From: Planctomyces sp.
GTDB taxonomy: Bacteria; Planctomycetota; Planctomycetia; Planctomycetales; Planctomycetaceae
NCBI GenBank assembly: GCA_019636235.1
Contig: JAHBXW010000001.1
Span: 682,001 to 746,000 of the forward strand
Length of the DNA stretch: 64,000 nt
Direction: 5' to 3'
A program made the translations under genes and the position numbers. Below, in pieces: positions 10,436 to 16,193 of the stretch. The notes under the pieces were generated by a model, which searched no databases, had not been told where the DNA came from, and saw only the letters and a program-made list of their open reading frames with translations. Numbering within the stretch: position 1 is the first letter of the stretch; each line of letters starts with the position of its first letter.

Positions 10436-12325
10436 TCACAGGGGCCGGAAGTCGTCCGCGGCAGGAGCGGCCGCCGAGCGCTCATAGCTCGCCGGAAGCA
10501 CCTGCGGGGCCGTCCGGTGCTGCATGTCGCGGGCGATCTCCCGGCGCATGGCCTGCAGCATGGCCACAGGAGCCTGTCCGGGCCCTTCGAGGAACGTCAC
10601 GTCCTCGACCACAAACCGGTCCCGTTCGAGAATCAGGTCGACTTCCGCGACCTCGCGACCGTTGGACAGCGTCACCCGGGACTGCGTCGCGTCGATCTTC
10701 GCCGCATGAATCGGCAGGGCCAGTCGGCCCTCGATGTTCACGCCAATTTCAGGAGTCTCCTGGACCTGCTGCCAGACGATCCGGTCGAGCCCCGTTCCAG
10801 AGGCAGCCATCAGCGCGTTGCGGTCTCCGCTGGCCAGCCCCGCGCGGAACTCCGCGATCGGCGCCAGCACCTGCATGGTCTTCTTGAGGGACGACGGCCG
10901 GTTCAGAACGGGCATCAGGACGTCATCGACGACGAGCCGCCCTCCCTCGGAATGCAGAACGTATGTCAGAGCTCGCGAGCCCTGCATGACGGTCACCTCC
11001 GTCACCGGCCCCTGGAACACGGTCGTCGCATGCGTCGGCGGCGCCGTCTCGATCTCGTTCAACCCGATCGCCTGCAGAATCTGCGGCGGAAACCGCTTCC
11101 ACACGCGGTCGTTGAAGTCCGTCGTGGACAACTGCCGCAACTGCACCGCGTCGCGAGCCGCCAGAAGTTCGCTGTACACCTCGACGACCGCCTGCGACTG
11201 GAACACAGCCGACAGCCGCTTGATCTCGCCGCTCTTGCGATCGTAGACCGTGACCTCCTCGACACGCCGCTCGCTGGCCATCGCGGGGTCCGTCTCCTCG
11301 CCGATCGCCGATTTCGGAGGCACGATATTCAGCGTGTACGTCGTGTCGTTCAACGTCAGCAGCACGTCGATCCGCTCGCGATGCTGCTGGACGTCGAACG
11401 GCTGGGTCAACAGGTCCATGGCGGGCAGCGGGGCCCGGGACAGATCGCCGGGAAGCAGGCTCTTCTCGTGGAACTCGCGAGTCGACATTTGCGCGAGGGC
11501 CGGCTTGTCCCCCGCGGCGTAGGCCTCCAGAAACTGCCGCGCCTGCGTCAGGGACGTGCACAACTTGCGGACCGAGGAAACCTCCTCCTCTTTGCCGCCG
11601 CTCCAGGAGGCGTCGTTCAGCAGCCAGCGACCGCTCGAGTTCCGAAACTCCATGACCAGCAGGCCGTCCCCGCGCCGCAAACCGACCGCCGCGCGATCCT
11701 GCTCCATCCGAACTTCAGGACGGAAGGAATTGGCCCGGATCGGGCTGTCCCCGGCGACGCGGCTGGCGATCTTGTCGAGCCACGCGGGAGGCAGACCCTC
11801 AAGTTCCTTCGCCAGCTCCGGCGTGGTGACCGTCTGCATCGCCTCGCGCTCGCGCGACTGCAGCGCCGCGAGCATCTCGCGCACGCACAGCAGCATGTTC
11901 ATCTGGTCGGTCACCGAGCGAACGACTTCCGAGCTGCTGCCCTCCAGCTTCTGGCCGACGAACACGTCGTCGACGACCCAGCGGCCCTTCTTCGGGTTGC
12001 GCGTCAGTCGGTACTCCACCCGCTTCTTCGACTCGCCGACTTCGACGACGACGACGCGCTCCTTCGGCGACGACTCATCGATGGAAACGACCTTGGCCTT
12101 GCCCGTCGGCAGTTGCACCAGCCGCAGGTCCTGCGTCGCTTCCGGCAGCCGCAGCGCCCGCGAACCGAATTCGTCCGACGAACTCGACTTCAACTGCGCG
12201 AGATCCTTGTTCTCCAGGCCCCGGGCGAATGCCGTGACGGCGCGCTGCGTGATCAACCCGGTGCAGCCCGGAAGACTGACGCCCAGCACTGAGCACGCGA
12301 GCGCCGCGCTCGTCAGACGTTTCAT
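10436..12325 (-). CDS. Lipoprotein of about five degenerate NTF2-like repeats
   Basis: This 629-residue protein has a lipoprotein signal peptide with lipobox SLPGC (Cys21). The mature part reads as about five copies of a ~100-residue unit (roughly 27-123, 143-242, 260-368, 375-472, 485-579). Each begins with a helix ending in a 'GD..L..mst.eF' turn (AYAAGDKPALAQMSTREF, LAARDAVQLRQLSTTDF, LASGDRNALMAAS). Four of the five close with a strand such as GRWVVDDV, GRWLLNDA, GRLVVDDV or RFVVEDV; the third has lost it. This is the SnoaL/NTF2-like pattern. No catalytic residue is evident. The start at MKRL follows a strong GGAGG Shine-Dalgarno sequence that overlaps an in-frame GTG (MEEV) four codons upstream. 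Confidence 0.85.
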   Translation of the reverse strand: MKRLTSAALACSVLGVSLPGCTGLITQRAVTAFARGLENKDLAQLKSSSSDEFGSRALRLPEATQDLRLVQLPTGKAKVVSIDESSPKERVVVVEVGESKKRVEYRLTRNPKKGRWVVDDVFVGQKLEGSSSEVVRSVTDQMNMLLCVREMLAALQSREREAMQTVTTPELAKELEGLPPAWLDKIASRVAGDSPIRANSFRPEVRMEQDRAAVGLRRGDGLLVMEFRNSSGRWLLNDASWSGGKEEEVSSVRKLCTSLTQARQFLEAYAAGDKPALAQMSTREFHEKSLLPGDLSRAPLPAMDLLTQPFDVQQHRERIDVLLTLNDTTYTLNIVPPKSAIGEETDPAMASERRVEEVTVYDRKSGEIKRLSAVFQSQAVVEVYSELLAARDAVQLRQLSTTDFNDRVWKRFPPQILQAIGLNEIETAPPTHATTVFQGPVTEVTVMQGSRALTYVLHSEGGRLVVDDVLMPVLNRPSSLKKTMQVLAPIAEFRAGLASGDRNALMAASGTGLDRIVWQQVQETPEIGVNIEGRLALPIHAAKIDATQSRVTLSNGREVAEVDLILERDRFVVEDVTFLEGPGQAPVAMLQAMRREIARDMQHRTAPQVLPASYERSAAAPAADDFRPL

Positions 12326-12452
12326 GACTTCCTCCACACGGGCAAAGCGACGACCGGGCGCATTCCGCTCTCCGGAACAGGCGGTGGGAACCGCGCACGG
12401 CGGGCGTGCGATTTTCCGCGGGGGATGTGTCAGAATCCGACAGACCGGTCAA

Positions 12453-12524
12453 CGGCAGGAACCGCAGGGACGCCGTTCCGGGGTCCGCGGGCAGCGAACG
12501 GCGTCCGGCACCGGCAGGAACCGC
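12453..12524. repeat. 13-bp direct repeat, two copies
   Basis: CGGCAGGAACCGC occurs at 12453-12465 and again at 12512-12524. The copies start 59 bp apart and flank the 11-bp inverted repeat. Confidence 0.7.
12468..12506. repeat. Perfect 11-bp inverted repeat
   Basis: GGACGCCGTTC (12468-12478) pairs exactly with GAACGGCGTCC (12496-12506) around a 17-nt GC-rich loop. It lies between the two copies of the 13-bp direct repeat. Confidence 0.75.
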
Positions 12525-12542
12525 CGGCGCGGCGCCGCGAAT

Positions 12543-12577
12543 TGGCCGACCGTCGGCTGACTCCGCGCCGTCGGCCA
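12543..12577. repeat. Perfect 8-bp inverted repeat
   Basis: TGGCCGAC (12543-12550) pairs with GTCGGCCA (12570-12577) around a 19-nt spacer. Confidence 0.65.
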
Positions 12578-12592
12578 GACGCCCATTTCGCC

Positions 12593-12616
12593 GTTGCAGG
12601 GACGTTTCCCTGCAAC
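12593..12616. repeat. Perfect 10-bp hairpin upstream of the 12677 gene
   Basis: GTTGCAGGGA (12593-12602) pairs with TCCCTGCAAC (12607-12616) across a CGTT tetraloop. It ends 60 bp before the ATG at 12677. No T-run follows, so it is not a standard intrinsic terminator. Confidence 0.75.
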
Positions 12617-12676
12617 CCCGCCCGCGAAACGGCTGGTAGACCAGACGACCACTCCCTTTCAGACTCCGGATTGTCC

Positions 12677-14335
12677 ATGACGTTCCGTCTTCGCTCGCGC
12701 AGCCCCGTCCGCTGGCTGGTCCTCATTCTGGCGCTCGGAACGGCGTCCCGCGCCGACGCGCAAAATGCCACGCCCCCCCTCGCCGTCGCGGCGATCGCCA
12801 GCATCGACGCGGTGCTCGACGACGTCGACTATCTGTTCGACGCCTCGGGACATCCTCAGTACGCGCAGTTCGTGCGGGGCCTGGTCGCCAACCTCAACGA
12901 GTTGAAGGGCATCGATCGCGGCCGGCCGCTGGGCGTCATGGTCTTCTTTCCTCAGACGCTGGGGGCTGATCCCGACGCCGCCGTGTTCATTCCGGTGGCG
13001 GACATCGAGCAGTTGAAATCCACCGCGCGGCTGGGAAACGTCATCAGCCTCGAAGATGACGCGCAGCCGGGACGTCTCGTCCTCAAGACGCCGGAGAAGT
13101 CGATTCCCGTCCGGCTGGAACATGGTTACGCCTTCCTCAGCGAGAAGCCCGACGTCCTGCTTCGCACCCTGCCCGATCCGAGCAGCGTGATGGGCGACCT
13201 GCTCAGCCGGTACGACGGCGCGATTTCGCTGCGCCGGGAAGGCATTCCAGTCCACCTGGCCCTGATGGCGCGAGGCACGCTGGACGGGCTGCTGGCATCG
13301 ACGCGCTCGCAGGCTCAGGGCGGCACGGAAACTGAGACCCAGCTGGTGCAGGACTCTCTGGGATTTGGCGGGCAGATCGCCCGTGCGCTGTTCGAAGACA
13401 CCGAGCGGCTGGAGGCCGGCTGGCGGCTGGAGCGGGACGCACGTTCGCTGGTGATCGAAGGCGCCGTGGTGGCCGGTTCGGGGAAGCCGCGGATTCCCAA
13501 CGCGTTTCAGTCGCTGGCTGAGGGCTCGCCCCGCTTTGGAGCGCTGGCCGCCGAGGCGGCGCCAATGGGACTCGTGCTGCATGTGAATCTGCCGGTCGAG
13601 CTGCGTGAGATGATCGGCCGTGCGCTGGATTTGAGCCAGCAAAAGGCGGAGGGCGAGACGGAGCGCGGCGCGGCCATCCTGCTGCCGCACGTGCGGACGC
13701 TGTTCTCGACGCTGCGGCGAACGGCGGAAGCCGGGCAACTGGATGCGGTGTTTCAGGTGGTCGGCGGACCGCCCGACCACTTCACGGCGATCGGCGGAAT
13801 CGCGCTGGCGGATGGCGAGCCGCTGGCACGCGCCGTCCAGGCGGTGCTGCCCTTCGCGCAGGCCTCGCCCGAGGGACGGAAGATCGACATGAACGCCATG
13901 GAGATCCGCGGCGTGGCGTTTCATCGCGTCCGGGGCGTGGCGGAGCGACCGCAGGATCAGTTGCTGTACGGCGAAGATGCGGCCCTGCTGGTCGGCGTCG
14001 CCCATGATGCGATCTGGTTCGCCATTGGCGGCGAGGAAGCCCGCGACCGGCTCGAAGAGGCCATGGGAGCATCCGGCGCCGCAGACGGCGATGCGGGACG
14101 TCTCGCCGCCGCCCGGCTGCATCTCACCGACTGGCTGGGACTGGTCCGCGACGAGGGGGATGAGGCCGCCCGCCAATTCCGGGCCGTGGCGCAACGGGCG
14201 TTCCCGCAGCCGGAGGATGACCAGCTGGAAATCGCGATCGCGCCTGTCGACCGGGGCCTGCAGCTGAGGATCACGTTGGAAGAGGGCTACCTGCGGATGA
14301 TCGGACACGCGATCGCCGTCTCGCAGGGACGCTGA
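12677..14335 (+). CDS. Exported protein of unknown function
   Basis: This 552-residue protein has a signal peptide ending in ASRADA (about residue 28). The mature part has no motif I recognise. It alternates amphipathic helices and strands, with repeated short 'A-x-x-D-A-V' and 'L-x-D-W-L' helices, no Cys-rich or transmembrane segments and no obvious catalytic triad. Fully or near-fully conserved-looking blocks include VMVFFPQTLGADPDAAVFIPV and the helix-rich C-terminus LEIAIAPVDRGLQLRI. It is probably a planctomycete-specific exported protein. It is divergent from the NTF2-like-repeat lipoprotein across a structured gap and converges on fhcC with only 6 bp between the stops. Confidence 0.78.
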   Translation: MTFRLRSRSPVRWLVLILALGTASRADAQNATPPLAVAAIASIDAVLDDVDYLFDASGHPQYAQFVRGLVANLNELKGIDRGRPLGVMVFFPQTLGADPDAAVFIPVADIEQLKSTARLGNVISLEDDAQPGRLVLKTPEKSIPVRLEHGYAFLSEKPDVLLRTLPDPSSVMGDLLSRYDGAISLRREGIPVHLALMARGTLDGLLASTRSQAQGGTETETQLVQDSLGFGGQIARALFEDTERLEAGWRLERDARSLVIEGAVVAGSGKPRIPNAFQSLAEGSPRFGALAAEAAPMGLVLHVNLPVELREMIGRALDLSQQKAEGETERGAAILLPHVRTLFSTLRRTAEAGQLDAVFQVVGGPPDHFTAIGGIALADGEPLARAVQAVLPFAQASPEGRKIDMNAMEIRGVAFHRVRGVAERPQDQLLYGEDAALLVGVAHDAIWFAIGGEEARDRLEEAMGASGAADGDAGRLAAARLHLTDWLGLVRDEGDEAARQFRAVAQRAFPQPEDDQLEIAIAPVDRGLQLRITLEEGYLRMIGHAIAVSQGR

Positions 14336-14341
14336 CCGGCG

Positions 14342-15157
14342 TCACGCCGCGGCGAAGATTTCGCCCTTGCCGAGTTCCAGCAGATCGCCGCAGTACCGGC
14401 GGACGCGGCGGTTGCGGAGCATCCCGGCCGGTTCGAAGCCCAGCGATTCCAGCCTCGCGGCAACGAGGTTCAGGAACACCGGCTGGCATTCGCAGGCCTC
14501 GCGGAAGGTCGGCAGCAGCTCCGGGTCCCGGGCGCCAAGCAGTCCGATCGTGCCGCGCTTCATTCCCGCGCCATGGCGGATGCCGACCTCGCCAAAGGTC
14601 AGGATCGAGCCCGCGATCATCGACACGCCCAGGAAGTCCCCCGCGGCGCCGGCGATGGCGATCAGGCCGCGGCGCATGGCGTGGCCGATTTCATTGCCGA
14701 CGTGGCCGTCGATGATGATTTCGCCGCCGGTCATCCCGCGCCGCGCCCCGCGGTAGGCCGACCCGACCAGATGCCCGGCGTTCCCGCGGATGCGAATCCG
14801 ACCGCCGTGAAGCTCGGCTCCGGCCCAGTCCGCGACGTTGCCGCGGACCTCGATCTCGCCCCCCGTCATCTCCGAGCCGAGGTGCATCCCGCAGTTCCCC
14901 TCGACGAGGACACGTCCGCCGGAATGGCGGGCGCCGATCCATTTCACGCGGGACAGATCGCCCTGCCAGACCAGCGTGTCGTCGGCGGCGGAGCCGCTGA
15001 CGTCGAAGAAGTCCCCGAGCGGCGCCTGCCGGTTGCCGCGCTGGATGAGGATGCCACGGACGGCGTCGGGCTTCAGGTCGCGCACCGCCTGCAGGGTGAC
15101 GGCGTCGACCTCCAGCGGAATGGCTGAAGGAGTTGTGAGTGCAATCGCGAGCGGCAT
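14342..15157 (-). CDS. fhcC: Formyltransferase/hydrolase complex subunit C (FwdC/FhcC family)
   Basis: This 271-residue protein has the repeating 'GG.i.v.G..G...G..M..G.i.v.G' beta-helix of the GXGXG superfamily. Examples are GGRVLVEGNCGMHLGSEMTG, GGRIRIRGNAGHLVGSAYRG and GGEIIIDGHVGNEIGHAMRR. Its length and the GAGMKRGTI signature fit subunit C of the formylmethanofuran dehydrogenase-derived Fhc complex rather than the glutamate synthase C-terminal domain. In bacteria with the tetrahydromethanopterin pathway, including many planctomycetes, Fhc releases formate during formaldehyde oxidation. The usual partners fhcA, fhcB and fhcD are absent from the window. The gene starts 37 bp after the FHA-domain gene, so the two are probably co-transcribed. 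Confidence 0.85.
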   Translation of the reverse strand: MPLAIALTTPSAIPLEVDAVTLQAVRDLKPDAVRGILIQRGNRQAPLGDFFDVSGSAADDTLVWQGDLSRVKWIGARHSGGRVLVEGNCGMHLGSEMTGGEIEVRGNVADWAGAELHGGRIRIRGNAGHLVGSAYRGARRGMTGGEIIIDGHVGNEIGHAMRRGLIAIAGAAGDFLGVSMIAGSILTFGEVGIRHGAGMKRGTIGLLGARDPELLPTFREACECQPVFLNLVAARLESLGFEPAGMLRNRRVRRYCGDLLELGKGEIFAAA

Positions 15158-15194
15158 GACGATCCGGGAACGGCAGGGTCCGGGGAACCTGCGG

Positions 15195-16037
15195 TTACGT
15201 GGGCCGCCGGGTTCGGTACTGCTTGATGATATCCGCGGCCGTCTCCGGAATTGTAGCCGGCTTGCCGCTCGCCGCGGCGCCGCCATCAGCAGCGGGCTTG
15301 GGAGGTTCCGGGGCTTTGGCGCCGGTCGTCTCGGGATCGGGCAGACGAACGTCCGGCGTGCTGCCGGCCGGGGCCTCAGTGGAGGCGGGAGCCGGCATGC
15401 CGGGAACCTGCTGCATTGGCATCCCGGGATACATCCCCATCGGCGGGGGATAGCCCATGGCCTGCGGGTAGTACCCGGGCATCGGATAGCCAGGCGGATA
15501 GCCGAACTGCGGAGCGTATTGCGGATAGCCCAAAGGCTGCCCGTACATGCCGGGGGGCGTCATCTGCGGCTGGACGAATGCGGTGTCGCCAGAGGTCATA
15601 TCTGGAGCGACCGGCATTTCGAGCATGGTCTCGCTGGTCGACGGTTCCGGCTCGGCCTTGGCCGGCTCCGAGACCGTCCCCGCGGGAATGCTCGTCTGTG
15701 TGTCGAGATTCACGTTCAGCGACGTGTCCTCGGCGGTGGGATCCCGCAGCACCACGTCGAATTCGAGCTTGCCGATCGCGACCCGGTCGCCGTCGTTCAA
15801 CAGGACGGCCCCGCGAATCCGCTCGCCGTTCACGAACGTGCCGTTCGTGCTGCCCAGATCGCGCAGACGGAGCGACAATTCGTCCGCTGTAAAGACGCAG
15901 TGATGGCGGCTGACGAGGTCGCTGTTCGGCCGCAGATGACAGTCTTCTTCCCGGCCGATCAGGAACTTGCCCAGGGGCAGCGTAATTACGCTGCCGGCCT
16001 GCCGGCCCGATGACACTCGCAGTTCTGCCTGCACCAT
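15195..16037 (-). CDS. FHA-domain protein with Pro/Tyr/Gly-rich tail
   Basis: This 280-residue protein carries an N-terminal forkhead-associated domain with all hallmark residues: GR at 28-29, SRHH at 43-46, STNGT at 63-67 and NG at 70-71. It should bind phosphothreonine peptides. A low-complexity region (about 145-225) rich in PGM, YGQP, GYPP and PMGM repeats follows, then an acidic/Pro-rich stretch and a short C-terminal helix (AADIIKQYRTRR). No kinase or phosphatase is next to it, so the ligand is unknown. The ATG at 16037 is preferred; in-frame GTG and TTG codons (to 16076) are alternatives. It is upstream of fhcC on the same strand. Confidence 0.83.
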   Translation of the reverse strand: MVQAELRVSSGRQAGSVITLPLGKFLIGREEDCHLRPNSDLVSRHHCVFTADELSLRLRDLGSTNGTFVNGERIRGAVLLNDGDRVAIGKLEFDVVLRDPTAEDTSLNVNLDTQTSIPAGTVSEPAKAEPEPSTSETMLEMPVAPDMTSGDTAFVQPQMTPPGMYGQPLGYPQYAPQFGYPPGYPMPGYYPQAMGYPPPMGMYPGMPMQQVPGMPAPASTEAPAGSTPDVRLPDPETTGAKAPEPPKPAADGGAAASGKPATIPETAADIIKQYRTRRPT

Positions 16038-16193
16038 AGGAGATCTCACGCGCACGTTGCCGACGTCAGTTGACAATGCTCCTCAGGCCGGACCGCATCC
16101 GATCGGAAACGCATTCCCGATCCGACGACAGGCGACGCGAATGCCGTAGGCCTTTAGATTCCACAGGAAGTGATGACGAACGCGAGAGAAAAG

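Follow-up and report, generated by a model that had tools for sequence, protein, structure and literature searches.

The gap at 12390-12620 between two divergent predicted genes of Planctomyces sp. appears to be the promoter region of a lipoprotein gene with tandem regulator sites, and the inverted repeats crowded into it are probably lineage-specific; we assign this reading a probability of about 0.6. Positions refer to the window, that is, the whole stretch of 64,000 nucleotides that was analysed. The gap would serve mainly to control the lipoprotein gene on the minus strand: RNA polymerase would start at a conserved promoter-like box, and a putative DNA-binding regulator, whose existence, identity and sign are all presumed here, would occupy 13-bp direct repeats. 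The positions of its two sites, one directly adjoining the -35 element on the upstream side and one 59 bp beyond that, make an activator the most likely kind of regulator. The inverted repeats to the right of approximately 12540 would lie in, or at the edge of, a block that contains the plus-strand gene and that is absent from the one relative available within the genus (G001). A repeat-rich gap thereby becomes a testable control region, with a promoter-like box that precedes a single uncharacterised lipoprotein gene in the orthologues sampled from a planctomycete family, and the conserved box with its unusual -10 element gives a way into the transcription signals of planctomycetes and into a widespread, functionally uncharacterised gene.

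The predicted lipoprotein gene (10436..12325, minus strand) encodes 629 amino acids from an ATG at 12325; an LPGC lipobox and a GGAGG Shine-Dalgarno sequence before the ATG were both recognized by eye. The protein matched no Pfam or NCBIfam family above cut-off, and matches to it were found in 140 of 150 family genomes, including the genome studied here. A first protein-level scan for a closer relative found none, and a second one, based on an 8-row alignment, gave 19 loci, none with more than 40% identity; 18 of these 19 were named as Planctomycetota and one was labelled just as a bacterium. On the other side of the gap, the predicted exported protein gene (12677..14335, plus strand; 552 amino acids, signal peptide by eye) has homologues in 144 of the 150 family genomes, with identities of at most 34% among the matches listed (own copy aside), and its product had no Pfam or NCBIfam match above cut-off. 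Beyond this gene, at 14342-16076 on the minus strand, a FwdC/FhcC-like protein adjoins an FHA-domain protein. The former matched the formylmethanofuran dehydrogenase subunit C family (TIGR03122) at 259 bits (cut-off 130.65). The plus-strand gene is not at this place in G001, on which alone the genus comparison is based: there, the lipoprotein gene (56% amino-acid identity) lies directly after FwdC-like and FHA-type genes, with a gap of 252 bp and no plus-strand gene. Neither of these two neighbours was found in the flanks, of 1.5 kb or less, of the other 28 loci tested.

The promoter-like box lies at 12424..12452 on the minus strand and comprises a -35 element TTGACC (12447-12452), a 17-nt spacer and a -10-like element CACATC (12424-12429) with TCTG just before it. 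Judging from the distance to the -10-like element, the minus-strand transcript would start near 12417, giving the lipoprotein mRNA a predicted 5' leader at 12326..12417, whose fold was no better than that of shuffled sequences (z +1.20). To characterize the box, 70 regions upstream of family lipoprotein orthologues were used, comprising the 30 best loci and 40 of the next-ranked ones (G123, G120 and G109 in that range were skipped); the pattern was derived from the first 30 regions and then applied to the full set. Judged by the best match to TTGAC-N17-GACAA in each region, 28 of the 70 regions scored 0, and scores of up to 1, 1.5 and 2 were found in 57, 66 and 70 regions, respectively, compared with 0.05, 0.75, 1.7 and 4.15 regions expected from shuffles that preserve single-base composition only and with 0, 2, 2 and 9 matches on the other strand. 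Among the 40 regions fetched later, 38 scored 1.5 or less. It should be noted that the boxes of our genome and of G001 both score 2.0 and are in the weakest four of the 70, at a level reached by 4.15 shuffled regions and 9 other-strand matches; therefore, neither would stand out by that score alone. A logo built from the 61 sites whose spacing is 17 nt reads cTTGACC-N11-wwTCTGnGASAAgCC, in which TTGACC, TCTG, GA-AA and the following Cs are kept and the spacer is unconserved, and from which the two genus boxes differ at two -10 positions.

We also searched genomes with the box. A matrix trained without the two genus sequences found one site of at least 8 bits in 464 kb of our genome, namely the 40 nt at 12415-12454 on the minus strand (15.5 bits), and the reversed control gave 0. 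Applied to 400 kb of another genome (G002), the same matrix gave three sites of at least 8 bits (one in the control), and of the three the known site alone exceeded 10 bits. The strict box pattern occurred 15 times, spread over 14 of 41 genomes (42 places in the reversed control), and by coordinates 9 of these 15 lie at lipoprotein orthologues and 6 elsewhere. Thus, in the samples examined, the matrix and pattern scans tie the box to the lipoprotein gene and not to a common promoter consensus.

We infer that the box is a promoter, as it combines a TTGACA-like -35 element with a -10-like element at a 17-nt spacer and recurs upstream of orthologues, in the manner of sigma-70-type promoters. The box is similar to the sigma-70 extended -10 promoter (TGn) in the TTGAC -35 element, the 17-nt spacer and a TG one base before the -10-like element, but has GASAAg (in the family) or CACATC (here) in place of TATAAT. 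It also differs from a general sigma-70 promoter in that, in the 464 kb and 400 kb of the two genomes, only the box of the lipoprotein gene exceeds 10 bits; a scan with the sigma-70 consensus reported nothing. In the literature, predicted planctomycete promoters have been set against the sigma-70 consensus (PMC11958385), and the passages of that article consulted contain nothing on the TTGACC-N11-wwTCTGnGASAAgCC box. No planctomycete start-site map was among the papers listed by our literature search, as judged by title. A further-reaching proposal would be that the lipoprotein gene has a deeply conserved promoter type of its own with this consensus, served by a nearly dedicated sigma factor or regulator, and that tandem activator sites were gained in the genus; we consider this doubtful.

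The 13-bp direct repeat CGGCAGGAACCGC has copies at 12453 and 12512. In the minus-strand reading (GCGGTTCCTGCCG), copy 1 (12453..12465) abuts the -35 element and copy 2 (12512..12524) lies 59 bp further upstream, and both are putative regulator sites. With respect to the -35 element, GCGGTTCCTGC stands at -72 and -13 in our genome, and the corresponding positions in G001 are occupied by GCGATTCCTGC and GCGGTCCCTGC, copy 1 being in place and the spacing also being 59 bp. The far copy is identical at 14 of 15 ungapped positions, which was equalled in 1 of 2000 shuffles preserving single-base composition only, compared with 16 of 46 positions between the copies and 24 of 80 beyond them (ungapped, anchored on TTGACC). 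In this alignment, the box and both 13-bp copies are the best-kept parts of the gap. A gapped alignment revealed additional weaker patches of similarity in the leader, and therefore these three islands are the strongest but not the sole kept parts. The comparison shows a candidate promoter box recurring upstream of family orthologues, and putative paired sites recurring with their spacing in G001. Like sites in equal orientation with kept sequence and spacing, as expected of tandem sites, were found in two genomes of one genus only. A third, weaker copy (CGGTGGGAACCGC, 11 of 13 matching) lies at 12382-12394, with no counterpart seen in the G001 alignment, and an imperfect direct repeat of 26 nt encloses the 13-mer.

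The arrangement resembles the textbook one of an activator site abutting the -35 element together with a second upstream site, in that both sites have the same orientation. It differs from it in the 59-bp spacing, in that the regulator is putative and in that no regulon was found; the fact that 59 bp is no whole number of helical turns is a point against the paired-site reading. As regards the regulon, the site joined to TTGAC occurred at 34 places in 25 genomes versus 75 in the reversed control, and this candidate was rejected. In the wider family, we counted words with at most two mismatches from GCGGTTCCTGC in the 130 nt that precede the box. With our genome, G001 and L075 dropped (the last being near-identical to L074), 10 such words were found in 67 regions outside the genus versus 3.5 in shuffled ones, a number reached by 0.5% of dinucleotide shuffles and 3% of permuted words; before L075 was dropped, 10 of 68 regions had them. 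Their distances vary, and we regard these words as suggestive only of similar sites elsewhere in the family.

Other explanations of the direct repeat were also considered. As a dispersed element, the 13-mer was rejected, with 105 places at up to one mismatch versus 79 in the reversed control. Exact copies were found at 11 places (contexts checked by eye), and a 24-nt hairpin from the gap, allowing up to three mismatches in its 18 specified bases, was found at one place in the genome and was rejected as a repeat; neither has the many genome copies typical of REP-like elements. The related motif GCAGGRAYCGC was in excess (81 versus 38 in the control for our genome, 60 versus 37 for G001), which looks like codon usage based on 30 contexts of the 141 places, inspected by eye without gene calling. 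By eye, the CsrA/RsmA GGA hairpins are alike in having AGGA or AGGGA in a small loop, as do three of the four copies of our genome and G001, but here the copies precede the point at which the lipoprotein RNA is predicted to begin.

The first-pass annotation had described the gap as packed with four perfect inverted repeats of 6, 11, 8 and 10 bp and with a 13-bp direct repeat flanking the 11-bp one, and all of these are present and perfect at definite coordinates. The 6-bp repeat (12394-12399/12405-12410) is within the predicted lipoprotein mRNA leader; the 11-bp repeat (12468-12478/12496-12506) has a 17-nt loop and lies between the two direct-repeat copies; the 8-bp repeat (12543-12550/12570-12577) is at the edge of the block missing from G001; and the 10-bp repeat (12593-12602/12607-12616) has a 4-nt loop, in agreement with the tetraloop proposed for the last hairpin. 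That earlier list lacked another perfect 8-bp inverted repeat (12525-12532/12563-12570). The arm sequences differ among themselves. We compared perfect inverted repeats with loops of 3-30 nt with 2000 dinucleotide shuffles of 12390-12620, and found four with arms of at least 8 bp (shuffle mean 0.36, P = 0.0005) and two with arms of at least 10 bp (shuffle mean 0.03, P = 0.0005), so the observation holds for the longer arms. For arms of at least 6 bp the count is not unusual (seven versus a mean of 3.9, P = 0.10), so the 6-bp repeat is ordinary. The claim that the density stands out from other gaps in the window was borne out: among 231-nt stretches taken every 30 nt, none elsewhere in the window has four repeats with arms of at least 8 bp. 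In a 400-kb sample of the same genome taken every 10 nt, one other cluster equals the four stems of the gap. The repeat density is real as regards the longer arms.

Conservation of the stems among relatives, as expected of a structured RNA, was not found in G001, the single relative and a weak covariation test. The 11-bp stem retains 5 of 11 pairs (G-T counted), the 6-bp stem 4 of 6, and the two 8-bp stems 2 of 8 (12543-12577; 5 pairs fall in alignment gaps) and 4 of 8. The 10-bp stem could not be aligned to G001, and the 8- and 10-bp stems are in or beside the block with the plus-strand gene that G001 lacks. These observations are in line with the alternative that survives best, in which the inverted repeats, as distinct from the box and the direct repeats, are neutral products of local duplication or inversion in GC-rich DNA close to the border of the plus-strand gene block. 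The imperfect 26-nt direct repeat around the 13-mer also agrees with such a history. However, clusters of this density are uncommon in the genome, some homologues of the plus-strand gene also have long stems upstream, and the kept 13-mers and box are left unexplained. We hold this alternative tentatively, at clearly lower odds than the promoter reading, with which it is compatible.

Less probable, and in our view unlikely, is a structured leader RNA or small RNA on the plus strand toward the 12677 gene with a functional compound hairpin, which could also coexist with the promoter reading. The compound hairpin (12581..12633, plus strand) consists of the 10-bp stem (12593-12616) nested in TTTCGC/GCGAAA (12586-12591/12624-12629) and GCC/GGC, and may lie in the leader of the plus-strand gene. 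Through this 10-bp stem inside two outer stems, 12540-12676 on the plus strand folds better than shuffled sequences (z -2.71, 1 of 200); for 12390-12676 the values were z -2.40 on the plus strand (6 of 200 shuffles) and z -1.35 on the minus strand. Upstream of homologues of the plus-strand gene, seven stems of at least 10 bp were found in 6 of 29 loci, compared with an expectation of 1.0 based on the remainder of these loci (a control of mostly coding DNA, with several homologue starts uncertain) and with one upstream of 29 lipoprotein orthologues. In the closest homologue (L036, 34% identity), a 10-bp stem closed by a 4-nt loop is situated near the assigned start. On the other hand, the remaining 23 loci have no such stem, no locus has a cluster like that of the gap (at most two stems of at least 8 bp per locus), and the long stems differ in sequence and distance. 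GTTTTCC follows two of them (L045 and L053), which could be terminators belonging to the genes before. No intrinsic terminator (GC-rich stem plus T run) was found in 12200-12800, where the compound hairpin is without a T run, and the promoter scan recognized no plus-strand promoter. Considering the differing stems, the GTTTTCC tails and the mostly coding control, hairpins in leaders are not separable from terminators of the genes before. A leader shared by the homologues, and with it the 24-nt hairpin, is kept in play because stems of at least 10 bp occur in 6 of 29 loci, and a leader or terminator hairpin before the plus-strand gene is possible. Thus, a structured RNA just before this gene draws some support from its fold and from the homologue stems, and is weakened by their differing sequences and partly T-rich tails. 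A structured leader RNA or riboregulator spanning the whole gap, as originally suggested, is not supported, given the stems not kept in the one relative, the fold of 12447-12540, which was no better than shuffles (z +0.56), and the absence of any Rfam match at gathering score in the window. The six stem-bearing loci are L036, L045, L047, L053, L056 and L058, with arms of 10-20 bp no more than 290 nt ahead of the assigned start, and L058 carries a perfect inverted repeat of 20 bp.

Finally, operators of one or more repressors common to both divergent genes would fit the perfect dyads, their density above chance and the divergent layout, but are improbable given that the arms are unlike one another, that the 11-bp dyad is not kept in G001 and that the rest are in or beside the missing block. 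A multi-site operator is nevertheless the best supported of the three options originally offered, by way of the direct repeats and not of the inverted repeats. A search of 40 relatives with the gap DNA returned three weak partial hits outside our genome (E-values of 1.8e-4 to 8.5e-4), which were taken as chance; the third hit was in L003, and in L002 and L004, the two loci examined, ORFs overlap the hit.
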